DNA of 36,081 nucleotides, from assembly GCF_003610195.1 (NCBI RefSeq), contig NZ_RAPO01000011.1:1-36081 (forward strand). The letters are read 5' to 3'. This DNA is from Halopiger aswanensis (GTDB lineage Archaea; Halobacteriota; Halobacteria; Halobacteriales; Natrialbaceae). The position numbers were made by a program, and so were the translations under genes. The notes beneath the pieces are model-generated. The model was not told the origin of the DNA, made no database searches, and saw only the letters and a list, made by a program, of their open reading frames with translations. Positions 8,878 through 24,327 of the stretch are shown here, piece after piece (within the stretch, counting starts at the first letter, position 1; each line of letters opens with the position of its first letter).

Positions 8878-10221
8878 ATGGTACTAGCCGACATAGACCG
8901 ATATGATCAATCGAGAAATGCACAGATAGATGGACGAGCGATAATCCTCGGTGCAAGCATGGCTGGTCTTGCTGCTGCGAAAGTAGTTTCTGACGTGTTC
9001 GACGAGGTCGCTGTCATTGAGCGTGATCCGTTACCTGATGTACCTGCGACTCGGGATGGTGCGCCACAGACCAGTCATCCTCACGTTCTGTTAGAGGCTG
9101 GCCGAACGACACTGGAGGACTTCTTCCCCGGCTTCAGTGAAGATGTCATCCGCAGCGGCGGCTTGATGGTTGATGCCGCAACGGAGATGGAGTACTATGA
9201 GAACGGCGGTTTCTTTGCTGATGGGCCGAACCACCTCCCGATGCTCTGTGCCAGTAGGGCACTCTTTGAACACGTGGTTCGCCAACACGTGCGAGAGCTT
9301 CCAAACGTCGAACTGCTCGACAACTGTCGATTCTACGATTATCTCTACACGTCGGAAAACGGGGTGACCGGTGTGCGGTACCGCGATGGAACCGGGAACA
9401 AAAAGACGCTCTCCGCGGCTCTCGTTGTCGATGCAACCGGCCGAACCAGCCGAACGCCTGACTGGCTCGACGAGAACGGATTTGAAGCACCGGACGTCGA
9501 AGAGGTGTCTATCAACGTGACGTATAGTACGATTCGTCTTGATCGCCCGTCGGACAACCGAACAGTACTGTTCGTTCCTCCATCCCCGCCGAGAAAACGG
9601 GGCGTTGCTGCGATTCCGATTGAGGACGGTCAGTGGGAGTTTATCCTCCAGGGGATCCACGGTGACGACGCCCCGACTGACTGTCCGGCGTTCATCGAGT
9701 TCGCAAACAGTATCCCGGTGGATGAGGCTGGGCAGCTGCCGAGAGAACGTGACTGGGTCTCCGACGAGATCCATCACTATCCGTTCCCGTCGAGCATTCG
9801 ACGCCGGTACGACGAACTCGAGGAATTCCCTGACGGGCTCGTTGTGACGGGAGATGCAATCGCCAGTTTCAATCCGGTATACGGACAGGGGATGTCGGTT
9901 GGCTCTTTAGATGCACTCTTGTTACACCATCTACTCGCGGAGACCGGACTTGATGAGTTCGCCCTCACGTACTTCTCCCGCACCGCTGCCGTGATCCAAC
10001 AAGCGTGGCAGATAGCTGTAGTTGCAGATTTTGCATTTCCAATGACAACCGGACCGAAACCCCTAGGAACTGATCTTCTCAACTGGTATATAAACCGATT
10101 GATACGGAGCGCCCACGCGGATGGGGAACTCATGGATGCGTTCTATCGCGTGTTCAGACTAGAGAAGTCTGCCACCAGCCTGTTTCGTCCTGGTGTCGTA
10201 CGACGTGTCCTACAACCGTAG
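8878..10221 (+). CDS. FAD-dependent oxidoreductase / monooxygenase-like protein
   Basis: A 447-residue flavoprotein of the PHBH or geranylgeranyl-reductase type. The Rossmann ADP-binding motif is IILGASMAGLAAAKV (about residues 22-36, GxSxxG variant), with VIERD as the acidic end of the second strand. The second FAD motif is GLVVTGDAIASFNPVYGQGMS, with the Gly-Asp contacting the ribityl chain. The VVDATGR motif lies in between. This family hydroxylates or dehydrogenates aromatic or lipid substrates using NAD(P)H; the substrate here is unknown. The gene is monocistronic, between IS relics on both sides. It starts at ATG with about 20 residues before the FAD motif. Confidence 0.85.
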   Translation: MVLADIDRYDQSRNAQIDGRAIILGASMAGLAAAKVVSDVFDEVAVIERDPLPDVPATRDGAPQTSHPHVLLEAGRTTLEDFFPGFSEDVIRSGGLMVDAATEMEYYENGGFFADGPNHLPMLCASRALFEHVVRQHVRELPNVELLDNCRFYDYLYTSENGVTGVRYRDGTGNKKTLSAALVVDATGRTSRTPDWLDENGFEAPDVEEVSINVTYSTIRLDRPSDNRTVLFVPPSPPRKRGVAAIPIEDGQWEFILQGIHGDDAPTDCPAFIEFANSIPVDEAGQLPRERDWVSDEIHHYPFPSSIRRRYDELEEFPDGLVVTGDAIASFNPVYGQGMSVGSLDALLLHHLLAETGLDEFALTYFSRTAAVIQQAWQIAVVADFAFPMTTGPKPLGTDLLNWYINRLIRSAHADGELMDAFYRVFRLEKSATSLFRPGVVRRVLQP

Positions 10222-10530
10222 CTCGGTCGCCCTATCGGTACGCTCAACTGAACGCTATGAGGTCGTCGAACTGGCTGCGGAAGACAACACCCTGTATCTC
10301 GCACACTTCACTTTCGTTTCTTCCACGTCGAAAGCAGTGAATTCGCCGTTCGCTACAGGTGCAAACTGAACACTTCAACTCCCGAAAGCACTTACCGTTG
10401 TACTAGAAGCCGGATTCGTGAACCGGCGAACACTTCCCTCGAGTGAATCATCGCGTTTCTCGACGGGGCTGTGAGATAATCTCCGGGACGCTGGTGGCGG
10501 CGCGGCATTGACCGTCTGCCGGCCAGTCTG
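10222..10530. other. Convergent intergenic region with a shared repeat fragment
   Basis: No gene is supported. Positions 10308-10370 (around CGAAAGCAGTGAA) resemble 2062-2125 in the same orientation, with conserved order over about 60 nt, so both are probably remnants of the same mobile or small gene sequence. Confidence 0.35.
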
Positions 10531-10905
10531 TCAGACGTCGACCGCTTCGATCTCGCGGGCCATCGCCACGGCTCCGAACTCTTTTGTATCGTCTTCGCTG
10601 TGCTCGATCTCGCGGAACTCGACTCGCGATCGGTTCCAAGAGCCGCCAGCGACTTCCTCGGCCGCGACCAGTCCTTCGGGGTCGGGCAGGTCGAGGCGGT
10701 TGACCGCGTCGTCGTCCGCCTCGACGGCGTAACGCAGGCTGCCGCCGTCGACGTCGTCATCGACCGAACTCGGCAGGTGAAGCGGCCGCCGAATGGAGAC
10801 CGGTAACTCCGTACCGTCGTCCAGATGTAGCACGATCTTCTCGCCGTCTTGCTTGTCGAGCAGTACCTCCGCTATCTTGTCTGGATCCTGTGAGTTGGAC
10901 GTCAT
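10531..10905 (-). CDS. Small haloarchaeal protein downstream of the PAPS-reductase-like gene
   Basis: A 124-residue, strongly acidic, soluble protein. The N-terminal third (VLLDKQDGEKIVLHLDDGTELPVS) looks like a small beta-barrel; the rest (GSLRYAVEADDDAVNRLDLP..., SWNRSRVEFREIE) continues as beta strands. No catalytic motif is visible and the family is not recognised. It begins 60 nt after the PAPS-reductase-like gene on the same strand, so the two are likely co-transcribed and may work together, which is inference from position only. The ATG at 10905 is the only good start. Confidence 0.7.
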   Translation of the reverse strand: MTSNSQDPDKIAEVLLDKQDGEKIVLHLDDGTELPVSIRRPLHLPSSVDDDVDGGSLRYAVEADDDAVNRLDLPDPEGLVAAEEVAGGSWNRSRVEFREIEHSEDDTKEFGAVAMAREIEAVDV

Positions 10906-10965
10906 CGTACTCGTACGAGGTCGTGAGGTCGGTCACTCGATGAGACTCGCTGCTGCGTGGGACCG

Positions 10966-11670
10966 TCAGTCATCCGTGTCAATCTCTCCCTGGCCGACGT
11001 CCTCCATGCTGTCGACAGCGAAGATGACTTCGCCGTCGAGCGTGCACTGCTTGCAGCCCGTACAGTCGAACCCTTGGTCGTAAATCTCGTTGTACGGGAG
11101 TTCGCGGCGGTCGTGGTATTCCCAGACGTCTTGGTCCGTCCAGTGGACGATCGGGTTGATGTGAGTGATCTCCTCTTTCTCCTCGAAGAAGTCGAGGTTG
11201 CTACGCCAGTCGTAGCTCTCTTCCCCCTCGTCATCCTGCCCTTCGGTGATGCGGTACCCGGTGATCCAGCCGTCGTGCCCGTCGACCATCCGCTCGATCG
11301 GTTTTGACTTGAGCGTCTCGCAACAGAGGTCCGGCTTGCGCTGGTTCACACGAGGGCCGTGCTCTTCGACGAGTTCCTCGTAGCTCGAGTCGGGCCGGTA
11401 CGTATCGAACGTGACGCCGTAGCGGTCCTCGAGGTCCTCCTTTACCCGCAGGGTGTCCTCGAAGTGATTGCCGTGGTCGCAGAAGCCCAGCGCTGTCCGG
11501 GCCTTAATGTCGACGGTCGATCTGTCTAGCAGATCGAGTACGACGTTCGAATCCTTCCCGAAACTGCAGGTGAAGATCGGATTGTCGAACCGGCCCCAGG
11601 TCTCCTCGAGGACATCGAGCGATCTATCTATCTTTTCGTCGAGGGTCGCGGAGTCGATTTCCAGGGACAT
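10966..11670 (-). CDS. Phosphoadenosine phosphosulfate reductase-family protein
   Basis: A 234-residue member of the adenine nucleotide alpha-hydrolase / PAPS reductase superfamily. CSFGKDSNVVLDLL (about residues 35-48) is the pyrophosphate-binding loop, and DHGNHFEDTLRVKEDLEDRYG matches the region that follows it in CysH-type enzymes. It has LCCETLK and then GFDCTGCKQC, so four or more cysteines that could bind an iron-sulfur cluster or act in sulfur transfer. True assimilatory reductases have a C-terminal ECGLH-type motif, which is not visible here, so sulfate activation is not certain; a sulfur-transfer or nucleotide-modifying role is possible. The ATG at 11670 is chosen because upstream residues lack homologous character. 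Confidence 0.82.
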   Translation of the reverse strand: MSLEIDSATLDEKIDRSLDVLEETWGRFDNPIFTCSFGKDSNVVLDLLDRSTVDIKARTALGFCDHGNHFEDTLRVKEDLEDRYGVTFDTYRPDSSYEELVEEHGPRVNQRKPDLCCETLKSKPIERMVDGHDGWITGYRITEGQDDEGEESYDWRSNLDFFEEKEEITHINPIVHWTDQDVWEYHDRRELPYNEIYDQGFDCTGCKQCTLDGEVIFAVDSMEDVGQGEIDTDD

Positions 11671-12462: not shown

Positions 12463-13656
12463 TTAGATTACACCGTCTTTCTGGAGTTTTTCGATCTCAT
12501 TCTTCGAGAGGCCCAAGCGCTTTCGATAGATCTCATGGTTGCCTTCACCCTTTCGTGGAGCGGGCTCGATATCGGGCATCTCCGACTCCGAGAGTCGGAT
12601 CGGCATCCCGGGAACACGGATCTCTCCCTCGGTGGGATGATCGATCTCGACGACCATCTCCCGCTTCTCAAGGTGGGGATCGTGGATCACCTCCTCGACG
12701 CTCTGGACCGACCCACAGGGGACGCTGACCGCCGAGAGCGTCTCCTCAATCTCTTCGCGGGTGCGCTCTCGAGTCCACTCCTCGATGGCCGTGTCGATCG
12801 TCTCCATGTGCTCGACGCGGTCGACGTTGGTCGCGAACCGGTCGTCGTCCCGCAGGTCCTTTCGACCGATCGCCTCGCACAGCGTCCGCCAGTGGTCGTC
12901 GGATGTACAGAGAATCGCCACGTAGCCGTCGTCAGCCTCGTAGGCGTTGTAGGGCGCCTTCGCGAGGCTGCTGTGCCGATTGCCCGTCCGCGCGGGGACG
13001 TCGGCGTTGTCGTAGTAGTTGGCCAGTTGGGACATGAGCGAGGGGTACACTGCGTCCTGCATGCTGGCCTCGACGAACTGGCCCTCGCCGGTACGCTTGC
13101 GCTGGTAGAGCGCCGCCAGGACGCCAGCCGCGAGGTGGATCCCGCCGAGGAAGTCCCCCGGCGCGATCCCGGTCTTGGTCGGCGGATCGTCGGGACGACC
13201 GGTAGCGTCCATGACGCCGCTTTCGGCCTGGACGATGAGGTCCATCGCCAGCCGATCACTTTTGGGGCCGTCCTCGCCGAAGCCGCTACCGTGCGCGTAA
13301 ATCAGTTCGGGGTTGATCTCGGCGAGGGTTTCGTATCCGAGGCCGAACTGCTCCATCGTCCCCGGCGCGAAGTTCTCGACGAGGACGTCCGCGTCCCGTA
13401 CGAGATCCTTGAATAGTTCCTTGCCCCGGTCGTCTTTGAGGTTGAGCGTGATGCCCTCCTTCGTGGAGTTGAGCATCACGAGTTCCGGCGGTTCGCCCTC
13501 GCCGTCCTCGACGCGGGAGCGGAGGGGTTCGCCGAACGGTGGTTCGACCTTCGTCACGTCGGCTCCAAGATACGAGAGCATCAAGGAACCGTACGCGCCG
13601 TTGTAGATCTGTCCGAGGTCGATAACGTCGACGTCGTCGAGTGCTTGTTGATTCAT
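12463..13656 (-). CDS. Type III CoA-transferase (CaiB/BaiF family)
   Basis: A 397-residue enzyme of the formyl-CoA transferase family, which moves CoA between carboxylic acids through a covalent aspartyl-CoA intermediate. The N-terminal Rossmann part shows VIDLGQIYNGAYGSLMLSYLG and GADVTKVEPP. Asp139 in MDLIVQAESGVMDATG is the expected catalytic aspartate. LNLKDDRGKELFKDLVRDAD and VLVENFAPGTMEQFGLGYE are typical family blocks. Length is normal. It lies 42 nt downstream of the acylating aldehyde dehydrogenase and probably ends the tct operon. The likely role is to activate the imported carboxylate to its CoA thioester. The substrate cannot be read from sequence. Confidence 0.88.
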   Translation of the reverse strand: MNQQALDDVDVIDLGQIYNGAYGSLMLSYLGADVTKVEPPFGEPLRSRVEDGEGEPPELVMLNSTKEGITLNLKDDRGKELFKDLVRDADVLVENFAPGTMEQFGLGYETLAEINPELIYAHGSGFGEDGPKSDRLAMDLIVQAESGVMDATGRPDDPPTKTGIAPGDFLGGIHLAAGVLAALYQRKRTGEGQFVEASMQDAVYPSLMSQLANYYDNADVPARTGNRHSSLAKAPYNAYEADDGYVAILCTSDDHWRTLCEAIGRKDLRDDDRFATNVDRVEHMETIDTAIEEWTRERTREEIEETLSAVSVPCGSVQSVEEVIHDPHLEKREMVVEIDHPTEGEIRVPGMPIRLSESEMPDIEPAPRKGEGNHEIYRKRLGLSKNEIEKLQKDGVI

Positions 13657-13698
13657 ATATGAGTAGTGTCGATGTCGAAAATGGACCTTTGGGAAGGT

Positions 13699-15120
13699 TC
13701 AGTGGCCGTATTTCTCGTGATACGAGCCGAAGAGTTCCTCCTCGCTCGGCTCGTCGGGTTCGACAGTCTCAGCGACCGTCGTCGTGTTGAGGAAATGAGT
13801 GTAATCGATGTTCTCGTCGGTCTGGTTGCTGCCCCAGATGCCGGCTCCCATCGAGAGCGTGAAGTTGAGCCCATTGTCGAAACTTCCGCCGTTGCCGAAA
13901 CACTGGGGCTGGTTGATTAACAGCCGGGCGACGTTGATCTCATGGCCGATGCGTTCCCGGTGGTCGTCGTCAGTCGTGTGTAAGCCACAGGAATGACCAC
14001 TCCCCTCGAACGCGAGGATGTCGCTCGTTGTCTCGAGCGCGGCGTCGAAGTCGGCGGCCTCATAGAGGGTGAGCACGACCGAGAGCTTCTCGCCCGAAAG
14101 GGGATATTCTTCGCCGATGCCCTGCCCCTCGACCATGAAAAAGTCGGCGTCGCGGGCCTCCGGCGGGAGGTCGGCGGCGACCGCGATCTCGTCTGGCGGC
14201 TGTGCGGTGACCTCGCCGGAGAGCGAGCCGTGGCCGTCGGGGAACATGGTCTTCTCGAGACGCTCGCGTTCCTCGGCGTCGCAGAGGTACCCGCCCTGGG
14301 CCTCGAGCGCGGCGATGGCGTCGTCGTAGACCAACTCGACGATCACCGCGGAATTGTCGCTCGAGCAGCTCGTCGCGTAGTCGAAGGTCTTGCTCTTGGC
14401 GATGCGGTCGGCGGCCGCCTCAAGGTCGGCCGTCGCGTCGACGATCGAGACGACGTTGCCCTCGCCGACGCAGTAGTTTGGCGTCCCCGAGCGCTCGCCC
14501 CGGTGGACGTTGCTCGCGGAGCCGGTTACCTGTAGCAGGTCGCACCGATCCATCAGCTCGTACGTCTTCTCCTTCTCGACGGGTCCGGGGAGCAACTGGA
14601 CGAGATCCCGGGGCGCGCCTACTTTCTCGAGTTCGTCGCGAATGTACTCGACGACCAGTTCGGCGGTCGAGTAGCCGGCCGGCGACGGCGAGACGACGAT
14701 CGCGTTGCGCCCCTTCAGCGCCATCATTGCCAGATTCGCGGGCGTCGCGCCCGGGTTGGTCGAGGGGACGACCGCGCCGACGACGCCGACGGGCTTAGCA
14801 ATCTCGGTAATACCCGTTTCCTCGTTCCGCTCGACCACGCCGACTGAGGGTTCCCCGCGCAAGTCGTCCAGCGTGCCGGCGGTCTTACGGCGCTTTTTGG
14901 TGATCTTGTCCTCGACGTTGCCGAAGCCGGTGTCTCTGACTGCCATCTCCGAGATTTCTCGGGCGCGATCCTCCTCGTAGATCGCCCAGGCGATCGCTTG
15001 GATGAGTTCGTCGACCTCTTCCTGATCGTAGTCCGCGATCTCGTTCATCGCCGTTCGTGCGCGCTCAAGACAGGAATCGACGGCCGACGTCGACCCGACT
15101 TGCGAAGCGTTCGTAGTCAT
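13699..15120 (-). CDS. Acylating aldehyde dehydrogenase, SauS-like (sulfoacetaldehyde dehydrogenase type)
   Basis: A 473-residue CoA-acylating aldehyde dehydrogenase, expected to interconvert an acyl-CoA and its aldehyde with NAD(P)H. The catalytic cysteine is Cys252 in ATSCSSDNSAVI. The cofactor region has PVGVVGAVVPSTNPGATPAN, and NGLNFTLSMGAGIWG lies near the C-terminus. The blocks DTGFGNVEDKITKKRRKT and GITEIAKPVGVVGAV resemble SauS of bacterial sulfoacetate catabolism, which reduces sulfoacetyl-CoA to sulfoacetaldehyde; acetaldehyde and succinate-semialdehyde enzymes are also close. It sits between TctA (70 nt) and the CoA-transferase (42 nt), so the three functions are linked. The exact substrate is inference. 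Confidence 0.82.
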   Translation of the reverse strand: MTTNASQVGSTSAVDSCLERARTAMNEIADYDQEEVDELIQAIAWAIYEEDRAREISEMAVRDTGFGNVEDKITKKRRKTAGTLDDLRGEPSVGVVERNEETGITEIAKPVGVVGAVVPSTNPGATPANLAMMALKGRNAIVVSPSPAGYSTAELVVEYIRDELEKVGAPRDLVQLLPGPVEKEKTYELMDRCDLLQVTGSASNVHRGERSGTPNYCVGEGNVVSIVDATADLEAAADRIAKSKTFDYATSCSSDNSAVIVELVYDDAIAALEAQGGYLCDAEERERLEKTMFPDGHGSLSGEVTAQPPDEIAVAADLPPEARDADFFMVEGQGIGEEYPLSGEKLSVVLTLYEAADFDAALETTSDILAFEGSGHSCGLHTTDDDHRERIGHEINVARLLINQPQCFGNGGSFDNGLNFTLSMGAGIWGSNQTDENIDYTHFLNTTTVAETVEPDEPSEEELFGSYHEKYGH

Positions 15121-15190
15121 CTACGGTCCCTGGTCGATTCCGCCCTAAAGCCATGTTGCCGGCACGTACGCGCCGGCGATTAGCAGCCGT

Positions 15191-16687
15191 TCAGTCCTTG
15201 ATCACGGTAACGAGCAGCGAGAGAGCGATCAGGAGCAACAGCCCGATCGTGATGTAGCTATTGAACAGGAAGGCCCGAGCGCTCTCGCCGGTCAATAGCC
15301 AGCCGGTGACGAAGCCGTTCTCGGCGATGTCACCGAGGATCACCCCCAGCACGAGGCTTACGAGCGGGTAGTCGTACTTGATGAACAGGAGTCCGACTAG
15401 GCCGAAGATCAGAACGATATACAGATCGACGGGCGCGTTCCGCACCGCGAAGCCCCCAACAATCGAGAGCACCGCCACTGCGGGAATGATGTACCGAATC
15501 GGGATGTACGCAAGTTTCCCGAAGTACTGCGATCCGGTGAGTCCATAGATCAGAATCAGGACGTTCCCGATGAACAGCGAGAGGATCATCGCGTAGACGA
15601 TATCGCTTGAGGAGTCGAACAGCCCGGGACCGGGGTTCAGTCCGTGAAGCGCGATCGCACCCAGCAGCGCCGCGGTCGAGCCGCTCCCTGGGATTCCGAG
15701 TGTCAACGTCGGAATCAGCGCCCCGCCCTGGGTCGCGTTGTTGCTCGAGTCGGCCGCGATGACGCCTTCGATGATGCCGGTGCCGAACCGGTCGCTTAGT
15801 TCGTCGTTAGCCCATCGCTTGGCTTCGTTATACGAGACGAAGTTCGCTACGTCAGCACCCGCGCCGGGCAACGAACCGACAAAGGTCCCGATGAGCGTCC
15901 CGCGAACGAACTCAACCGGCCGAGAAGCGACCGCTCGGGCGGCCTCGTACACTTCCGACGTGCCGCCCTCGACGTTTTCACCGCCGGTAACGGCGGGACC
16001 TCGGTAGGCGAGTCGAAACACCTCCGCCAGGACGAATAGCCCGATGAGCACGACGACGAAGTCGACGCCTTCAAGGAGCGTTGTTTGCCCGAACGTGGCC
16101 CGCGACTGGGAGAGTTGCGGGTCGTTCCCGATCGTCCCGATCAGTAGTCCGAACAAGCCGGCCAGCAGTGCCTTCGTGAGTGACGCACCCTTCGCAGCGG
16201 GGATGATCGTCAGGGCAAACACCGCGAGCAGGAACATCTCCGGCGGGCCAAAGTTGAGCGCGAATTCGGAGATCGGTGGGGCGAAGACGAGGAGGAAGGC
16301 TGCTGCGACCACGCCCGCGAGTCCGGAGACGATCGCGGAGACCGCGAGCGCGTAGACGGCTCGCCCTTGTTTCGTGAGTTCGTACCCGTCCCAGCAGGTG
16401 ACAACCGATCCCGGCGCGCCGGGCGTATTGATCAAGATCGCTGGAATCGACCCGCCGTACACCGCACCACCGTAGGCGGAGACCAGGAAAATCAGCGCCA
16501 GCGTCGACTCGAACGGGATCGTAATCGGCGTGAACAGCACGATTGTCATCGTCGCGGAAAACCCGGGAATCGCGCCGAACACGACGCCGACTGCGGTTCC
16601 TAGAAAGATCGCGAAGAGCACATACGGATCCGCGAGTATGCTGAGTCCGGCCTCTATCGAGGCGGGGAAGAGCAACGCGTCGATCAT
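15191..16687 (-). CDS. tctA: Tripartite tricarboxylate transporter permease TctA
   Basis: A 498-residue polytopic membrane protein with about 12 hydrophobic segments. It has the family hallmarks GAIPGFSATMTIVLFTPIT near residue 40, GSIPAILINTPGAPGS near 80-100, the second pseudo-symmetric copy of the motif at GTFVGSLPGAGADVANFVSY, and ALIPTLTLGIPGSGSTAALL. It is the large, ion-coupled permease that takes substrate from the TctC binding protein. The start is ATG 16687, which overlaps the stop of tctB in an ATGA arrangement. Substrates of this family are carboxylates such as citrate, aromatic acids and sulfonated acids. Third in the operon after tctC and tctB. Confidence 0.92.
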   Translation of the reverse strand: MIDALLFPASIEAGLSILADPYVLFAIFLGTAVGVVFGAIPGFSATMTIVLFTPITIPFESTLALIFLVSAYGGAVYGGSIPAILINTPGAPGSVVTCWDGYELTKQGRAVYALAVSAIVSGLAGVVAAAFLLVFAPPISEFALNFGPPEMFLLAVFALTIIPAAKGASLTKALLAGLFGLLIGTIGNDPQLSQSRATFGQTTLLEGVDFVVVLIGLFVLAEVFRLAYRGPAVTGGENVEGGTSEVYEAARAVASRPVEFVRGTLIGTFVGSLPGAGADVANFVSYNEAKRWANDELSDRFGTGIIEGVIAADSSNNATQGGALIPTLTLGIPGSGSTAALLGAIALHGLNPGPGLFDSSSDIVYAMILSLFIGNVLILIYGLTGSQYFGKLAYIPIRYIIPAVAVLSIVGGFAVRNAPVDLYIVLIFGLVGLLFIKYDYPLVSLVLGVILGDIAENGFVTGWLLTGESARAFLFNSYITIGLLLLIALSLLVTVIKD

Positions 16688-17256
16688 AGCGGCACCTGTA
16701 ACCACTGGATGAACACGATCCAGAGAAGGAACGCGAACCCGATCGAATACAGCGTCAGGGAGAGCAGGCTCTCCTCACCGAACATATAGAGGGTGACCGC
16801 GAGATACCCTACAGTGGCGACGAGGAAACTGATCAGCTCGAGCGCGACGATGTAGAGGCCCGTCAGGACGACCAACAGCGCCGCGTTACGCACGGTGAAT
16901 ATCTGATCGGTTGTGGTCGTTTTGGGCTCGGTATCTGAACTTGCCTCGGGCTCGCTCTTTGGGTTCGGTTCTGGTTCAGGGAGGGCCGACGCCGTTTCGA
17001 GATCGGACCCGTCCTGCTCCCTGCCCCCGTTGATCGAAACCGCTTGCTGGACGAGGGTGATGACGGCGAGGGCCGTCGTCGCGTACAGCAGCGGCCCCGC
17101 ATACAGCATGGAGAGGTCCGGCAGGGCGCGCGTGTCCCAGTAGTAAAACAGGCAAAACGCCAGCACGAGTCCTGGAAACAGCAACTCGCCCGTATCGACC
17201 TCGAGTGTCCGTTCGCCAGCTGAGAACGTGAGTACCGGCGGTGTGACTCCTGTCAT
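16684..17256 (-). CDS. tctB: Tripartite tricarboxylate transporter small membrane subunit TctB
   Basis: A 190-residue membrane protein with about four transmembrane segments: LLFPGLVLAFCLFYYW, MLYAGPLLYATTALAVITLV, AALLVVLTGLYIVALELISF plus LVATVGYLAVTLYMF, and LYSIGFAFLLWIVFIQWL. Between the second and third is a Pro/Glu/Thr-rich acidic linker of about 45 residues, longer than in bacterial TctB and probably cytoplasmic or external loop adaptation to salt. The ATG at 17256 is 5 nt past the tctC stop, and its own stop overlaps the tctA start. It pairs with TctA to form the transport channel. The upstream in-frame extension is Arg-rich and not real. Confidence 0.85.
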   Translation of the reverse strand: MTGVTPPVLTFSAGERTLEVDTGELLFPGLVLAFCLFYYWDTRALPDLSMLYAGPLLYATTALAVITLVQQAVSINGGREQDGSDLETASALPEPEPNPKSEPEASSDTEPKTTTTDQIFTVRNAALLVVLTGLYIVALELISFLVATVGYLAVTLYMFGEESLLSLTLYSIGFAFLLWIVFIQWLQVPL

Positions 17257-17261
17257 GGATT

Positions 17262-18287
17262 CTACTGGTCGTAAATGAAGGACTCGATCACGTCGGCGTA
17301 CTCCTCCATGAACGCGGCAGTATCCTCGACCTCCTGTCTCGTCTCGTCGGGACCGCGGTAATCGATGATCTCGTCGAGGCCACCCTGTTCTTCGGTTCGG
17401 GCCCGAAACGCCTCGTCGTCGAATACCGCGGCGTAGCTCTCCGAGAGCGCCTCGAATCGGTCGGGATGCTGCTCGCGAACCCCGCCGGGTAACACGACCA
17501 GTTTCCACTGCCCGAGCCCCTCCTCGACCAGCGGGATTTCCTCCAGCCCGAGTTCGGCGAACGACGGCGCGGGCGGCCACAGCTCCTGTTGCTCGGCGGT
17601 GTGTGATCCGAGTGCGATCACGTCGTCGACGTGGTCGGGGTTGAACGCCCAGGGTTGATTGACGCCGGCGTCGATGTCGCCTGCGAGGACGGCCTGTCGG
17701 ACGCCGGAGCCGCCGCCCATATTGACGATGGTCAGATCGAGGTCAAAGGTCTCCTCGACGAGCAACGCGGACAGCGCCGTGTTGCCGATCGCGGCCGTAA
17801 TGCCGACGGTTGCGTCGTTTTCGCGGGCGTACTCGACGAATTCCTTGAGATCGCTGTACGGGCTGTCGGGCGGTGCGAACCACATCGTCGGATCCCAGTG
17901 GTGAGTGCCGAGATAGTCGAAGTCGTCGATCCGGTACGGCGCATTCTGGAACAGCCACGTCGCCTGCATCTGGGGCATGTTCCACATCGCAAGCGTAAAC
18001 CCGTCGGCGTCGGCATTGTACAGCTCCTCGCCCCCGACCTGCGTCGAACCGCCTGGATGGTTTTCGACGACGAAATCGATATCGAGTAATTCGGACCACG
18101 TCGGCGTCGTAACGCGGATCGACCGGTCGGTACCTCCGCCCTGCGACCACGGAACAACCGCCGTAATCTGGGTCTCGTCGAACACGCCCATTATACCGCG
18201 GGCCTGGGCGGTGTACGCTGCCGTTCCCGCCAGTCCGACGGCCCCAGCCGCGAGAAACTCCCGTCGACTAGTGTCTTTTATTGTCAT
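17262..18287 (-). CDS. tctC: Tripartite tricarboxylate transporter substrate-binding protein TctC
   Basis: A 341-residue exported periplasmic-type binding protein. The N-terminus MTIKDTSRREFLAAGAVGLAGTAAY carries a twin-arginine (Tat) signal. The mature part has the family patterns ITAVVPWSQGGGTDRSIR near residues 40-60, VENHPGGSTQVGGEELYNA, TIVNMGGGSGVRQAVLAGDID and WKLVVLPGGVREQHPDR. It captures a carboxylate outside the cell and hands it to TctAB. The ATG at 18287 is chosen because it begins the Tat signal; the longer frame to 18452 lacks protein character. It is the first gene of the operon tctC-tctB-tctA-aldehyde dehydrogenase-CoA-transferase, so the promoter should lie just upstream. 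Confidence 0.9.
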   Translation of the reverse strand: MTIKDTSRREFLAAGAVGLAGTAAYTAQARGIMGVFDETQITAVVPWSQGGGTDRSIRVTTPTWSELLDIDFVVENHPGGSTQVGGEELYNADADGFTLAMWNMPQMQATWLFQNAPYRIDDFDYLGTHHWDPTMWFAPPDSPYSDLKEFVEYARENDATVGITAAIGNTALSALLVEETFDLDLTIVNMGGGSGVRQAVLAGDIDAGVNQPWAFNPDHVDDVIALGSHTAEQQELWPPAPSFAELGLEEIPLVEEGLGQWKLVVLPGGVREQHPDRFEALSESYAAVFDDEAFRARTEEQGGLDEIIDYRGPDETRQEVEDTAAFMEEYADVIESFIYDQ

Positions 18288-18702
18288 TGTTGGATTATAC
18301 TTGCGCCTGGATTTGCTCCGACTCGAGAGGGACTGATGATGCGCTTCGTCGCACTTCAGTCTTGAGTCGGTCGCACGGTTCGTCGTTTCGCGGACACCAC
18401 TGCAGTGTAGCAGTTGACATTGTTGGAGGCGGTCAAGCGTTAGATCGTCCAATAATCGGAAGATTCGATCCGAACTGTGTCCCGAACTACGTGTTATATT
18501 GAGGACCTATCCTGGGTTGCCGATTGGGCTTGCGACTGCAACTGAAACAGGTGATTAAGAACCAGTATGTTAGATATGGGGGCATAATATACGTCGACGA
18601 CGATAGATCAGCTAACCCGACTTTATGCAGCGAATGGAGGAATACGTGATCAGTTCATAATGCAACCCGAGTGGCTTTGTGTCTCCCAGCGGCAGTTGTT
18701 TC
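18288..18702. promoter_or_regulatory. Divergent intergenic region of the tct operon and aldo/keto reductase
   Basis: 415 nt with no supportable gene on either strand. It must contain the promoters of the divergent tct operon and reductase. A clear palindrome or operator was not seen. Confidence 0.35.
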
Positions 18703-19680
18703 GTGGAATACACGACGCTCGGATCAACTGGCATGGAAGTCAGTCGACTCTGTCTCGGCTGTATGAGTTTCGGCGATCCGAACTGGCGCGACTGGGTCCT
18801 CGAGGAAGACGAAGGGACGGAAATCATCGATCGGGCGATCGACCTCGGGATCAACTTTTTTGACACCGCGAACATGTACTCGCGGGGCGAATCCGAGCGC
18901 ATCCTCGGGAACGCCCTCGAGGGGTATGATTCGGACTGGCCGGTCGTCGCCACGTAAGTGTACATGGAGATGAACGAGGAGAACCCGAACGCCAGCGGGT
19001 TGTCGCGAAAGGCGATCGAGCAGGAACTCGCGAACAGCCTCGACCGGTTGGGAATGGACACCGTCGACCTCTACCAGATCCACCGTTGGGACGACGACAC
19101 GCCGATCGAGGAGACGATGAAAGCGCTCGACGATGCCGTGCGTCGCGAACAGGTGCGTTATCTCGGTGGTTCCTCGATGTGGGCCCACCAATTCGCAGAA
19201 TCACTCCACACGAGCGACCGGTTAGGTCTCGACCGGTTCGTCACGATGCAGGACCACTACAATCTTGTCTACCGCGAGGAGGAACGCGAGATGCTGCCGC
19301 TCTGTAAGAAGGAAGGCATCGGTGTCATGCCCTGGAGCCCGCTTGCTCGCGGCTATCTCGCCCGACCCGCTGAGGATATCAACACGACGGCTCGAGGCGA
19401 ATCAGGCGAAAAGCTGTACGAACACCCGTATCGCGACGGCGGCGGTCGCGAAATTAACGAGCGTGTCGAGGAACTCGCTGAGGAGAACGGTATGACGATG
19501 GCGCAAATTTCCCTAGCTTGGTTGTTACACAAAGATTGGGTCGATGCGCCAATAATAGGGACAACAAGTATTGAACATCTCGAACAAGCTGTTAACGCAC
19601 TCGATATTTCGTTATCCGATAGCGATATTGAATATCTTGAGGCGCCATATGAACCAGTACCGGTATCTGGTCACACATAG
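18703..19680 (+). pseudogene. Aldo/keto reductase, nonsense mutation at the catalytic lysine
   Basis: The complete frame would give a protein of about 325 residues starting VEYTTLGSTGMEVSRLCLG (GTG at 18703). It has DTANMYSRGESE with the catalytic Asp and Tyr, and LYQIHRWD with the catalytic His. Between them the frame reads WPVVAT, then TAA (18955-18957), then VYMEMNEENPN. Family members have the catalytic Lys exactly here (VATKVY), so one AAA to TAA change both ends translation and removes the key residue. The remainder, with the CKKEGIGVMPWSPLARGYL block and a normal C-terminus, is intact. The last 180 nt or so are visibly more AT-rich than the rest, suggesting a mosaic origin. It is divergent from the tct operon and may once have reduced the aldehyde it makes. 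Confidence 0.85.
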
Positions 19681-20175: not shown

Positions 20176-20781
20176 TCACTCAGTCGGAGTCCCAACGACC
20201 GCTGAGATCGCAGCGTTCGATGGGTCTGCGCTCTCGAAGACTTGCTCGTCGGAGATACCCAAGAAGAACTCCTGCTCGCCCTCGACGTATTCCAGAATCG
20301 TGTCTGTCAAAGCCTCAGAATCCCGGTGGACCATCCGCTGGAAGTAGGAACCTTCTCGCTGGAGATTCGATCGAACGTACTCGGAACGTGTGTTCAACAC
20401 GAGTGCCACGAGGACACCCTCAGACGCGAGGACACGAGTCGCCTCAGCTAGCACAGCATCGCTATCGGGAATGAATTCGAGCGTCGAGACGAAAACGACA
20501 GCATCAACGGACGCGGTTGCGATAGGGAGCGCGGTCGCATCACCGAGAACAAGCGGTGCAGAAACTCGATCCCGTGCTGCCTGGATCATCGCCTTTGAGC
20601 GGTCTATCCCGATCATTTCGTGATCGGGAAAGCGTTCTTCGAGCGAGCCGATGCCGCATCCAACGTCCAGAATCCGGTCGTCCGTACCGACGTGCTGTTT
20701 CACATACGCGGCCTCGCGGTCCATGACCGTCGTCCCGAACTCACTCTCACAAAATCGAATGAAACTCTCTACGTCGCTCAT
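20176..20781 (-). CDS. Class I SAM-dependent methyltransferase
   Basis: A 201-residue Rossmann-fold methyltransferase. Motif I is ILDVGCGIGSLEERF (about residues 37-51), the acidic residue ending strand 2 is in MIGIDRSKAMI, LGDATALPI is motif II or III, and VDAVVFVSTLEFIPDSDAVL is the motif IV region with following helix. The acceptor is unknown. Its ATG overlaps the stop of the cysteine desulfurase gene (ATGA), so the two are translationally coupled. That suggests a link to sulfur chemistry, for instance thiol or small-molecule methylation, but this is inference. It is the last gene of the unit. Confidence 0.85.
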   Translation of the reverse strand: MSDVESFIRFCESEFGTTVMDREAAYVKQHVGTDDRILDVGCGIGSLEERFPDHEMIGIDRSKAMIQAARDRVSAPLVLGDATALPIATASVDAVVFVSTLEFIPDSDAVLAEATRVLASEGVLVALVLNTRSEYVRSNLQREGSYFQRMVHRDSEALTDTILEYVEGEQEFFLGISDEQVFESADPSNAAISAVVGTPTE

Positions 20782-21896
20782 CTCCTGGCCTCCTCGAGAA
20801 CGTGTCCGAGTTGGTCTTTGACGTACTGGATGTCCTCTCTCGCCGTGTTACGGCCCAGTGAGAACCGAACCGCGCCAAATGCTAGGTTCGTATCGATGCC
20901 CATCTCCATTAGGACCCGAGAGGGAGACCGATCATTGGAGTGGCACGCAGACCCGCTCGACACCGCGATGTCGCGGTCGGCAAACGCCTGAACGAGATCC
21001 GCCCCCGACAATTCAGGGAATCCCATCATCGCGTAGCCAGGGAGTCGCCGATCCGGATGACCGACGAGGGTCGCATCGGTTTCGGTCTGGAGTGTCGCGA
21101 CGAGTTCGTCACGGAGTTCGGCTAGACGTTCTCTCCGTTCCGCCAGGTCCTCCACGGCGAGTTCAGCAGCTTTCCCCATCCCAACAATCCCCGGGACGTT
21201 TTCCGTCCCGCTGCGGAGTCCCCGTTCTTGACCGCCTCCGTGGATTATCGGCTCCAGTTCGATACCGTCACGGACGTACAGTGCGCCCACGCCTTTCGGG
21301 CCATAGAACTTGTGCGCGCTGAGGCTCGCCAAGTCGAGTCCGAGTGCATCGACGTCGATTGGAATCTTCCCCGCTGACTGGACCGTATCCGAGTGGAACA
21401 CCACGTCGTGTTCGTCGGTGATTTCGCCGATAGCCTCCAGCGGCTGGATGACCCCGGTTTCATTGTTGGCGTGCATAACGGAGACGACGGCTGTGTCCGG
21501 TTGAATCGCAGCTGCGACGTCGGCTGGATCGACGCGGCCGTCCCGGCCGGGAGTCACCCGCGTTACATCGATACCGTGGTCTCCCAGCCAGTTGGCCGTC
21601 TCGACCACCGCTGAGTGTTCGATAGTCGTGGTGACGACGTGTTGCCCGTCAGCCGCATCGACGGCCCCTTTGAGCGCGAGGTTGTCCGCTTCGCTTCCTC
21701 CGCCCGTGAACACGATGTTCCGAGCACTCGTGCTGAGGAGATCAGCGACTGCTGTTCGTGCGTTGTGAACCGCGTCAGCCTCAGCGGTCGCATAGATCGC
21801 CGATGGATTGCAGTAGTGATCTTCGAGAGACGGCTGCATTGCGGCGATGACCTCCTCGTGCGGTTCCGTCGTCGCGGCGTGGTCCAAGTAGATCAT
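20778..21896 (-). CDS. Cysteine desulfurase (NifS/IscS-like)
   Basis: A 372-residue PLP enzyme that removes sulfur from L-cysteine as a persulfide, supplying iron-sulfur clusters, thiolated tRNA or other sulfur carriers. It begins IYLDHAATTEPHEEV. The PLP lysine is Lys196 in SLSAHKFYGPKG, the pyridine-N Asp is in FHSDTVQSAGK, and ATTTIEHSAV and NNETGVIQP are family blocks. The sulfur-accepting cysteine is Cys318 in VSSGSACHS. The loop is short, as in group II and NifS-like members with a full active-site loop. It starts at ATG with a divergent DsrE-like gene 142 nt away. Lack of a neighbouring IscU/SufB argues for a special-purpose sulfur donor. Confidence 0.92.
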   Translation of the reverse strand: MIYLDHAATTEPHEEVIAAMQPSLEDHYCNPSAIYATAEADAVHNARTAVADLLSTSARNIVFTGGGSEADNLALKGAVDAADGQHVVTTTIEHSAVVETANWLGDHGIDVTRVTPGRDGRVDPADVAAAIQPDTAVVSVMHANNETGVIQPLEAIGEITDEHDVVFHSDTVQSAGKIPIDVDALGLDLASLSAHKFYGPKGVGALYVRDGIELEPIIHGGGQERGLRSGTENVPGIVGMGKAAELAVEDLAERRERLAELRDELVATLQTETDATLVGHPDRRLPGYAMMGFPELSGADLVQAFADRDIAVSSGSACHSNDRSPSRVLMEMGIDTNLAFGAVRFSLGRNTAREDIQYVKDQLGHVLEEARR

Positions 21897-22038
21897 TAGT
21901 AGTTGCTAAGATGTAACATCGACTCTGGAGCGCTTCACTCTTGATCTGAAGCGACCTGCCACCGTAATTGGTTGGCGGAATTCCCTCTAGAGAAGAATCA
22001 TCGCTGAGACTCAAGTCGCCACCTACCGTAGTTTCTGT

Positions 22039-22362
22039 ATGCACCTCGGAATCATCCTCGAGACGAACGACCCCGAGCGCGTCTGGAACGGATTTCGACT
22101 GGCGAACACCGCACTGGACGAGGGACATACCGTCGAAGTGTTCCTCCTCGGGGATGGCGTCGAAGCGCCCGACCTCGAGCACGAGAAGTTCAACCCACGC
22201 GGAGTCATGCGGAAGTACACGCAAAACGGCGGGGACCTCTTCGCCTGTGGTACCTGCCTCGACTCTCGTGACATCGATCCCAACGACCTCAGGCCCCGTT
22301 CGACGATGGGTGACTGCCTTCGTATCGTCGAAGACGCCGACGAAGTGCTGACCATCGGCTGA
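22039..22362 (+). CDS. DsrE-family sulfur-carrier-like protein
   Basis: A 107-residue soluble protein of the DsrE/TusD fold: HLGIILETNDPERVWNGFRLA, EGHTVEVFLLGDGVEA, DLFACGTCLDSR and a final ADEVLTIG strand. Cys70 and Cys73 form a CGTC pair at the position where DsrE-like proteins carry a persulfide-accepting cysteine. It likely accepts sulfane sulfur from a donor such as the divergent cysteine desulfurase or the rhodanese fusion 0.9 kb downstream. The start is the ATG at 22039. The gene is convergent with the HTH-10 regulator. Confidence 0.85.
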   Translation: MHLGIILETNDPERVWNGFRLANTALDEGHTVEVFLLGDGVEAPDLEHEKFNPRGVMRKYTQNGGDLFACGTCLDSRDIDPNDLRPRSTMGDCLRIVEDADEVLTIG

Positions 22363-22391
22363 CGCTACGACGGCGGTGGCTCGTCGCGTGG

Positions 22392-23126
22392 TCAGTCGGC
22401 GCTCTGTTCGGGCGTCCGTGGTTGCTCGACGTGCAGCGGATCTCCCGTGGACGTCGCCGTCACCAACCGTAGGAACTCGCCCGCGTTCGTGAGGAGTTTG
22501 TTCTCAGCTTTTCGAAGGTGCTCCTCGTACGTCGAGCGAGCAACGGATGTCCGCTCGGCCAACTCGCGTAGCGACGTCTTCCGGGGCTGTTCGTAGTACC
22601 CGCTTTCGAGGGCCAACCGGAGCGCCGCCAGCTGTCGGTCGGTGAGATCCTCGAAGAGCTGATCGACGGGGGCCAACATGCTGTGCGGGATCTGCTGTTC
22701 CTCGATGGCGGTCTTCGAGAGAACGTCGATGTCTCGGTCGGACTCGAGGTCCCGAATCAGCGCTCGAACGTCGGCCTCGTCGAACGCGATCACCGAGTAG
22801 TGCTCCCAGCCCTGTCGGTGGATCGTCGGCGGCTGGTACAGGCAGTTGTACTCCTCGAACCGGTCGATAATCGACCCCTCCAGCGAACAGAGACACGCCT
22901 GCGTGACGACGTGCAACCCGGAGTCGTCGATCGATCGATGCAGGATCGTTCCTAGACTGTCGATCTCCTCGAGCAGGTCGTCCGTCGGGGTTTCCGAGGA
23001 CGTGATCTCGAGCACCTGGCAGTCGCTCAGATACCACTCGCGTATCGTGAGGTCCGGGTGCCGTTCCGAAATCTCCCGATAGGGACACTCGTGTTTCACC
23101 CGGAACGAGGCCTCGTACAGGCTCAT
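22392..23126 (-). CDS. HTH-10 (bacterioopsin-activator type) transcriptional regulator
   Basis: A 244-residue haloarchaeal regulator. The N-terminal two-thirds is an alpha/beta ligand-sensing region with four cysteines (Cys14, Cys36 and the CLC pair near residue 100), which could react with sulfur species. The C-terminal HTH-10 domain reads LTDRQLAALRLALESGYYEQ and SLRELAERTSVARSTYEEHLRKAENKLL. Bat-type regulators usually activate adjacent genes. The ATG at 23126 is the clear start of homologous sequence. A perfect 20-bp palindrome begins 30 nt upstream, shared with the divergent rhodanese operon, so it probably controls that operon and itself. Confidence 0.88.
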   Translation of the reverse strand: MSLYEASFRVKHECPYREISERHPDLTIREWYLSDCQVLEITSSETPTDDLLEEIDSLGTILHRSIDDSGLHVVTQACLCSLEGSIIDRFEEYNCLYQPPTIHRQGWEHYSVIAFDEADVRALIRDLESDRDIDVLSKTAIEEQQIPHSMLAPVDQLFEDLTDRQLAALRLALESGYYEQPRKTSLRELAERTSVARSTYEEHLRKAENKLLTNAGEFLRLVTATSTGDPLHVEQPRTPEQSAD

Positions 23127-23156
23127 ACGCACTATTCGTTCTCTATCGCAATAGCT

Positions 23157-23176
23157 GTGCCGGTCATGACCGGCAC
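23157..23176. promoter_or_regulatory. Perfect 20-bp palindrome, probable operator of the sulfur operon
   Basis: GTGCCGGTCA followed by its exact reverse complement (TGACCGGCAC). It lies between the HTH-10 regulator and the rhodanese-MBL gene, immediately upstream of a TATA box (ATATACAG, 23182-23189) that is about 26-33 nt before the ATG at 23215. That is the standard place for an activator near the BRE. Confidence 0.7.
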
Positions 23177-23214
23177 TACCCATATACAGATATGCCTCTT
23201 ATCGGAGAACACCG

Positions 23215-24327
23215 ATGACAGAAGTGACTCCGGACGAACTCAGTGGACGATTGCAGGCCGACGGGGACGACGTTCTCGTCCTCGACATTCGGCACCAAGC
23301 GGACTACGACGAATGGCATATCCCGAACAGCGTCAACGTAGACGTCTACGACGAACTACAGGACGATCCGGAGACGGCAAGGGATGCCCTCGAAGACCTG
23401 CCGGAAGAGAAAGAGATCGTCACCGTCTGCGCCGCGGGAGTCGTCTCACAGACGGCGACGGACGTCCTGCGAGAGATGGGGTACGATGCCGCGACGCTCA
23501 CCGATGGGATGAACGGGTGGAGCCGCGTCCACCGGAGCGCGCCCGTTGAAACCGATCTCGACGGGACGCTCGTTCAGGTCGCCCGTCCCGGGAAGGGCTG
23601 TCTCTCGCACGTCCTGATTTCGGACGGCGAAGCCGCCGTGCTCGATCCCTCCCACTACCTCGACGAGTACGATGCAATCCTCGAGGAGCACGACGCCGAC
23701 CTCGTCGGCGTCTTCGACACGCACGCGCACGCCGACCACGTCTCCGGAGGTGCGGAGCTTGCCGAGCGTCACGACGTTCCCTACTACCTCCATCCGAAAG
23801 ACGCGCTCGCGATCGACGCGACCCCGGTCGAAGACGAAGCGACGATCGAAGTCGGGACCGTTGACGTCGACGTGATCCACACGCCGGGACACAGCGAGGG
23901 CAGCGTCTCGTTCGATCTCGAGGGCGAGGCCCTGCTCACGGGCGATACGCTGTTCCACGAGAGCGTCGGCCGCGTCGAACTCGGTGTCGAAGCCGGGATC
24001 GAAGAGTCCGACGTCGAAGGGAATGCGGCGACGCTCTACGAGAGCCTCCAGCGCTTGCTGGATCGACCGGCTGACGCCGTCGTCCTGCCGGCACACGACC
24101 CCGAAGCACCCGAACCACCGGTAACTGCGACACTCGGTGACGTCAAAGCGCAAAACGCGGATCTCAACCGTGACCGTGAAGAGTTCGTCGAGACACTCGC
24201 CTCGGACATCCCGGACCATCCGCCGAACTTCGAGCGCGTCAAGCGCACGAACGTCGGGCAGGAGGACGTCCCCGACGACGAACTATCCGAGCTCGAACTG
24301 GGCCCTAACCGCTGTGCAGCCGAGTAA
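23215..24327 (+). CDS. Rhodanese / metallo-beta-lactamase fusion, persulfide-dioxygenase-like
   Basis: A 370-residue two-domain protein. Residues 1-110 form a rhodanese domain (VLVLDIRHQADYDEWHIPNS, active loop VCAAGVVS with Cys72). Residues 115-300 form an MBL fold with HAHADH (170-175), His226 in TPGHSEGS, Asp244 in LLTGDTLF and His294 in PAHDP. ETHE1-like MBL proteins oxidise glutathione- or other persulfides to sulfite at a mononuclear iron; the rhodanese can relay the sulfane sulfur. The usual order in bacterial fusions is MBL then rhodanese, so the order here is reversed. The tail (about 310-370) is acidic and ends NRCAAE. It is 3 nt from the MFS gene, hence co-transcribed. Confidence 0.9.
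   Translation: MTEVTPDELSGRLQADGDDVLVLDIRHQADYDEWHIPNSVNVDVYDELQDDPETARDALEDLPEEKEIVTVCAAGVVSQTATDVLREMGYDAATLTDGMNGWSRVHRSAPVETDLDGTLVQVARPGKGCLSHVLISDGEAAVLDPSHYLDEYDAILEEHDADLVGVFDTHAHADHVSGGAELAERHDVPYYLHPKDALAIDATPVEDEATIEVGTVDVDVIHTPGHSEGSVSFDLEGEALLTGDTLFHESVGRVELGVEAGIEESDVEGNAATLYESLQRLLDRPADAVVLPAHDPEAPEPPVTATLGDVKAQNADLNRDREEFVETLASDIPDHPPNFERVKRTNVGQEDVPDDELSELELGPNRCAAE

Follow-up and report, generated by a model that had tools for sequence, protein, structure and literature searches.

A tctCBA-sauS-caiB operon of the haloarchaeon Halopiger aswanensis with a predicted role in sulfoacetate uptake and reduction

Gene content and conservation of the operon

The DNA analyzed in this work is a 36,081-nt stretch (hereafter the window) that forms contig C11 of the Halopiger aswanensis genome, a 4.87-Mb haloarchaeal assembly (G000) in 17 contigs with a reported completeness of 100% and contamination of 4.4%. 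On its minus strand, positions 12463-18287 are occupied by five open reading frames in the order tctC-tctB-tctA-sauS-caiB, which encode a tripartite tricarboxylate transporter (TTT), a CoA-acylating dehydrogenase and a type III CoA-transferase. A first-pass annotation of the window had described these genes as a one-strand operon for carboxylate uptake, activation and reduction, and the operon is confirmed by the reading frames, by Pfam matches that exceed the gathering cut-offs for all five proteins, and by a gene order conserved in relatives. The genes are as follows.

tctC, 17262..18287, minus strand: periplasmic substrate-binding protein of the TTT transporter with a Tat-type signal (SRREFLAAGAVG); PF03401, 58.6 bits
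tctB, 16684..17256, minus strand: small membrane subunit of the TTT transporter; PF07331, 52.2 bits
tctA, 15191..16687, minus strand: large membrane subunit of the TTT transporter; PF01970, 458.7 bits
sauS, 13699..15120, minus strand: CoA-acylating sulfoacetaldehyde dehydrogenase, proposed to run as a sulfoacetyl-CoA reductase; Aldedh, 74.1 bits; NF047625, 667.9 bits
caiB-type gene, 12463..13656, minus strand: type III CoA-transferase, proposed sulfoacetate CoA-transferase; PF02515 (CoA_transf_3), 406.9 bits

The spacing of the five genes is operon-like, with intergenic gaps of 5 nt (tctC/tctB), 70 nt (tctA/sauS) and 42 nt (sauS/caiB), while tctB and tctA overlap slightly. A GTG codon upstream at 16705 is a possible alternative start of tctA, while its orthologue in Haloterrigena (NZ_CP149788.1) is annotated from an ATG that overlaps tctB. 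All three TTT subunits are encoded together, and sauS is adjoined by this dedicated organic-acid transporter as in Azospirillum and Rhodobacteraceae. No promoter was matched in a scan with a bacterial-type model, which is not designed for archaea.

The same gene order was found in three other haloarchaeal genomes, namely a member of the same genus (G242), Haloterrigena sp. KLK7 (G197), where the operon resides on the 396,905-bp plasmid NZ_CP149788.1 (SauS, WP_339105900.1; CaiB, WP_339105899.1), and G226. Across these genomes the TctC, TctA, SauS and CaiB proteins are 77-91% identical (77-89% for TctC, 86-91% for TctA), and together with the retained order this argues that the arrangement did not arise by chance. 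The same genes occur in a rearranged form in G256. The position of tctB is the same in a wider set of loci (L047-L052, L079 and L080), and in the other haloarchaeal clusters of SauS, CaiB and Tct genes the identity of TctC falls to 54-59%.

Assignment of the dehydrogenase and the CoA-transferase

A curated model, the phylogeny and residues that distinguish the groups all bear out the resemblance of the dehydrogenase to SauS proposed in the first-pass annotation, and together they support a SauS-like assignment at the sequence level. The protein scored 667.9 bits against the NCBIfam equivalog NF047625 (SauS; cut-off 600), with the next family at 351 bits, and its Cys252 (TSCSSDN) aligned with the Cys of Clostridium kluyveri SucD (8cei). 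A tree was rooted with this SucD and an acetylating acetaldehyde dehydrogenase (5j78), both of which fell outside the SauS group, so that the dehydrogenase groups with bacterial SauS and not with either of them; the bacterial SauS were picked by gene context and exclude the characterized sequence of Cupriavidus necator H16. Bacterial SauS linked to Xsc, SauCD or SauT branch first, followed by Bacillus-type SauS with SauCD and then by a fully supported haloarchaeal group (100/100). The latter contains the four-member clade of the window protein (100/100), Xsc-linked copies and a separate clade, here called M (100/100). In a second tree, the rows linked to Xsc, ComA or CaiB formed one group with moderate support (87/90), so that the exact branching inside haloarchaeal SauS is tentative.

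Thirteen alignment columns separate the sulfonate-linked SauS from clade M, and at these the window clade either matches the sulfonate-linked proteins or differs conservatively; F414, M424, N256 and N445 are among these positions. The residues of clade M (Y/H414, E424, mostly G256, and Q445) are not shared by the window SauS. Since sequences on the outgroup side have the sulfonate-linked state, this state appears to be ancestral and retained by the window clade.

Clade M has a genomic context of its own. Its members have an iron-dependent alcohol dehydrogenase (Fe-ADH) as a neighbor, and at several loci (L053, L054, L055 and L058) they also adjoin a propionyl-CoA-synthase-like protein of 1804-1811 aa, with a 3-hydroxyisobutyrate-type dehydrogenase at three of these. 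One of the large proteins was scanned and, like propionyl-CoA synthase, combines an acyl-CoA synthetase part with enoyl-CoA hydratase and reductase parts. Several clade M proteins score 583-592 bits on the SauS equivalog, near its cut-off of 600. A role in a malonate semialdehyde / 3-hydroxypropionate pathway is possible for this clade.

The CaiB-type protein belongs to the type III CoA-transferase fold, with relatives in the PDB such as YfdE (4hl6) and Frc (1p5h), and its predicted catalytic residue, Asp168, aligned in all 27 rows. It stayed far under every curated equivalog cut-off tested: 321 of 700 bits for mesaconate, 295 of 504 for formyl-CoA and 274 of 522 for CoA:oxalate. Like Frc (formyl-CoA:oxalate) and YfdE (acetyl-CoA:oxalate), it combines the fold family and the catalytic Asp with a small dianionic acid as the proposed acceptor; it differs in being linked to SauS and not to oxalyl-CoA decarboxylase. 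In a tree that included four other paralogues of this genome as well as plasmid and bacterial homologues, the SauS-linked CaiB proteins formed a single clade (99/98) irrespective of the presence of Xsc. This points to a single recruitment of CaiB, which then stayed with SauS. The closest proteins outside this clade are haloarchaeal, and their genes adjoin either CoA ester lyase or TAXI-TRAP genes. Homologues of SauT and SauCD were found neither in the operon nor in closely homologous operons, where the type III CoA-transferase fills the slot; the first-pass annotation had seen correctly that a CoA-transferase stands in place of a ligase next to Tct.

Sulfoacetate as the predicted substrate

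SauS scores above the NF047625 cut-off in only 8 of 391 haloarchaeal genomes, and some of the SauS loci include the downstream enzymes of sulfoacetate breakdown. The Halomarina halobia plasmid (L080) encodes SauS, Fe-ADH, Xsc, Pta and CaiB, with TctABC divergent; a SauS-Xsc-Pta-CaiB-Tct cluster was found in G029 (L047) and a SauS-Xsc-Pta cluster in G325 (L046). The Xsc proteins of L046 and L047 pass the NF005713 cut-off of 620 (708 and 712 bits) and lie slightly under that of TIGR03457 (672 and 671 bits, cut-off 676). Fe-S/NrfD and molybdopterin proteins adjoin the L046 cluster and would suit sulfite oxidation. In G340, ComA-ComB adjoin SauS, CaiB and Tct, and Xsc lies on a separate contig by acetate kinase.

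Xsc was also observed in other settings. A haloarchaeal Fe-ADH adjoins Xsc in L150 (G340), L151 (G209) and L152 (G157), together with acetate kinase in G340 and Pta in the other two. None of the Xsc-containing genomes of genus g46 has a SauS above the cut-off, so that their sulfonate source may be isethionate or taurine.

In bacteria, the order tctC-tctB-tctA-sauS is identical on plasmid p3 of Azospirillum argentinense (L171), with SauCD there in place of CaiB, followed by xsc and by genes for Fe-S and membrane-anchor proteins. In Rhodococcus DK180, sauS-sauCD is accompanied by xsc, pta and tauE, while sauS-sauT, in most cases with Tct, is found in Rhodobacteraceae, Pelagibacter and Caballeronia. 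Thus, in the compared bacterial loci an activating enzyme, SauCD or SauT, directly follows sauS, at the place that CaiB takes in the window. Two described pathways provide the closest comparison. That of Bilophila wadsworthia consists of the TTT transporter SauXYZ, the ADP-forming ligase SauCD and SauS (Liu et al. 2023, as summarized in PMC12625764). It shares with the window operon the transporter type, SauS and the succession of acid, CoA thioester and reduction, but differs in using SauCD instead of a type III CoA-transferase, in its non-archaeal host, and in its downstream enzymes, since no SarD above the cut-off and no IslA-type enzyme was found here. The SauSTU pathway of C. necator H16 (Weinitschke et al. 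2010, as summarized in PMC12625764) has the same SauS chemistry, and its downstream Xsc and Pta recur in some haloarchaeal relatives; its AMP-forming ligase SauT and its major facilitator superfamily (MFS) transporter SauU are replaced here by CaiB and TctABC, and the present genome is without Xsc.

We propose, at a probability of roughly 70%, that the operon brings sulfoacetate into the cell and turns it into sulfoacetaldehyde. Uptake would be the task of TctCBA, as its linkage suggests. CaiB would then transfer CoA from a cellular thioester, probably succinyl-CoA or acetyl-CoA, to form sulfoacetyl-CoA, a role suggested by its membership of the type III family, the conservation of the catalytic Asp and its position among the operon genes. 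SauS would reduce sulfoacetyl-CoA to sulfoacetaldehyde with NAD(P)H, in agreement with its family, phylogeny and residues. Where the haloarchaeal set is complete, as in Halomarina halobia and G029, sulfoacetaldehyde would next be turned into acetyl-CoA by Xsc and Pta, with release of sulfite. Substrates, CoA donor and direction are predicted here from gene content and order, protein families, phylogeny and conserved residues. Sulfoacetate appears to be the best substrate because of the haloarchaeal clusters that unite Xsc, Pta, CaiB, SauS and Tct and the bacterial tctCBA-sauS operons with sauCD or sauT, and on these grounds the sulfonate substrate favored by the first-pass annotation is well supported. 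The operon would therefore be a variant of known sulfoacetate catabolism with a new entry step, a view that is well supported by the gene comparisons. The variant had been supposed to be distinct in both its CoA-transferase and its transporter; TTT transporters with SauS were already reported (SauXYZ of Bilophila, PMC12625764), which leaves the CoA-transferase as the new element.

Several observations weigh against this proposal, one of which concerns the fate of sulfoacetaldehyde. As the first-pass annotation had noted for the window, Xsc is absent from it, and it is absent from the whole genome (best matches acetolactate-synthase-like) as well as from G242, G197, G226 and G256. Neither an IslA-type glycyl-radical / PFL-like enzyme nor TauD was found in these five genomes, and the best match to SarD (298 bits) is far below the cut-off of 700; thus, neither an Xsc nor a SarD/IslA-type route for sulfoacetaldehyde was found in the H. 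aswanensis genome. The pathway is therefore without a known end in the window lineage, and its use of sulfonates rests on the relatives. Furthermore, given its cousins beside CoA ester lyases and TAXI-TRAP genes, the CaiB type would not by itself indicate a sulfonate. Finally, the co-occurrence statistics, which in themselves favor the proposal, ignore shared ancestry, both for Xsc, present in 7 of the 391 genomes and in three of the eight with SauS (p 1.9e-4), and for ComA (E up to 1e-50), present in only three, G226, G256 and G340, all with SauS (hypergeometric p 5.7e-6).

Three candidates for the last step were rejected. A divergent Xsc was discounted because the four thiamine diphosphate (TPP) enzymes scanned in this genome proved to be an acetolactate synthase (682 bits, TIGR00118), a PRK06154-type enzyme and two that fit better elsewhere; in G242, acetolactate synthase was the only TPP enzyme at the threshold used. 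ComA (phosphosulfolactate synthase) is absent from G000 and G197, and G242 has a weak paralogue only. An aldo/keto reductase (AKR) gene lies beside the operon in three genomes but is broken in this one, and it was not found by the operon in G226 and G256.

Two TPP enzymes of this genome have neighbors of some interest: at positions 63453-67719 of contig C7 the PRK06154-type enzyme is flanked by two CaiB-type CoA-transferases, and at 120100-123025 of contig C5 another adjoins an aldehyde dehydrogenase bearing an in-frame TAG. A glyoxalase-family gene and ComB come after ComA in all three genomes that have it. The cluster might enable non-methanogenic archaea to form sulfolactate or capture sulfite, and it is located as follows.

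ComA - glyoxalase-family gene - ComB: L051, 3384-5666; L079; L148, 9632-11693; L149, about 9659-11536

In H. aswanensis, the last step might be performed by an enzyme other than Xsc, or sulfoacetaldehyde might be reduced or aminated rather than desulfonated. That the Xsc-less genomes (G000, G242, Haloterrigena sp. KLK7, G226 and G256) dispose of it through a desulfonating or assimilating enzyme outside the known ones is a tentative idea that we regard as rather doubtful; if true, a new route of sulfonate breakdown would begin with this operon.

The lack of Xsc also leaves room for readings without sulfoacetate import. At least in the Xsc-less lineage, the operon could handle a carboxylate analogue (malonate, succinate or a 3-hydroxypropionate-related acid) that CaiB would convert to the acyl-CoA and the dehydrogenase to the semialdehyde. 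The closest solved structure, the succinate-semialdehyde dehydrogenase SucD (8cei), agrees with this reading, as does the sister clade M, whose neighbors (the 1811-aa propionyl-CoA-synthase-like protein, Fe-ADH and the 3-hydroxyisobutyrate-type dehydrogenase) suggest malonate semialdehyde. However, the window SauS has the sulfonate-linked residues and not those of clade M, SauS and CaiB are partnered in Xsc-linked and Xsc-less loci alike, and catabolic routes shorter than reduction are generally known for malonyl-CoA and succinyl-CoA, which together make a carboxylate substrate unlikely. The first-pass annotation would have abandoned a sulfonate if xsc were lacking and a non-sulfonate substrate were clear; xsc is indeed lacking here and in the closest relatives, but the analysis points to no clear substrate other than a sulfonate.

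Since acylating dehydrogenases and CoA-transferases are reversible, the enzymes might alternatively run backwards, with SauS oxidizing internal sulfoacetaldehyde (for instance from taurine), CaiB recovering the CoA and sulfoacetate being released. The absence of Xsc and the sulfolactate-forming ComA-ComB of three SauS genomes would fit such a direction, which is nevertheless highly improbable in view of the importer with a binding protein encoded in the same operon, the lack of ComA in this genome and the lack of taurine genes near the operon. Even less credible is a decaying remnant left non-functional by the loss of Xsc, as the missing Xsc and the broken AKR gene might imply, because all five genes are intact, the four compared are 77-91% identical in three genomes of different genera and families, and catalytic residues are kept, which indicates purifying selection.

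Neighboring genes and biological implications

Three neighboring features were considered in addition to the operon.

AKR gene, 18679..19680, plus strand: divergent from tctC and outside the core pathway
PAPS-reductase-family gene, 10966-11667, minus strand: 117 bits against the CysH model cut-off of 154, below cut-offs
Rhodanese-metallo-beta-lactamase and cysteine desulfurase group, 20778-24327

The AKR gene is interrupted by an in-frame TAA (18955-18957) where the catalytic Lys of AKR enzymes would be encoded, whereas its copies at the same place in G197 and G242 (L048/L049) are intact and 87-92% identical to it. The first-pass annotation had taken the flanking sulfur genes as evidence for a sulfonate substrate. 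The window does contain them, but the operons of relatives are not flanked by them, and the PAPS-reductase-like and rhodanese/desulfurase genes were rejected as members of the system since they are not syntenic in L048-L050. On the Haloterrigena plasmid, an MFS gene and a homologue of the rhodanese-metallo-beta-lactamase gene are present at a considerable distance from the operon.

No paper on sulfonate breakdown in haloarchaea was found in the literature searched. Complete Tct-CaiB-SauS-Xsc-Pta sets exist in haloarchaea, one of them in a cultured strain, and the gap that the window exposes is the missing sulfoacetaldehyde enzyme. If true, entry through a CoA-transferase would spare ATP and add a third way of activating sulfoacetate to those of SauT and SauCD. 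Haloarchaea may thus be consumers of organosulfonates in brines.

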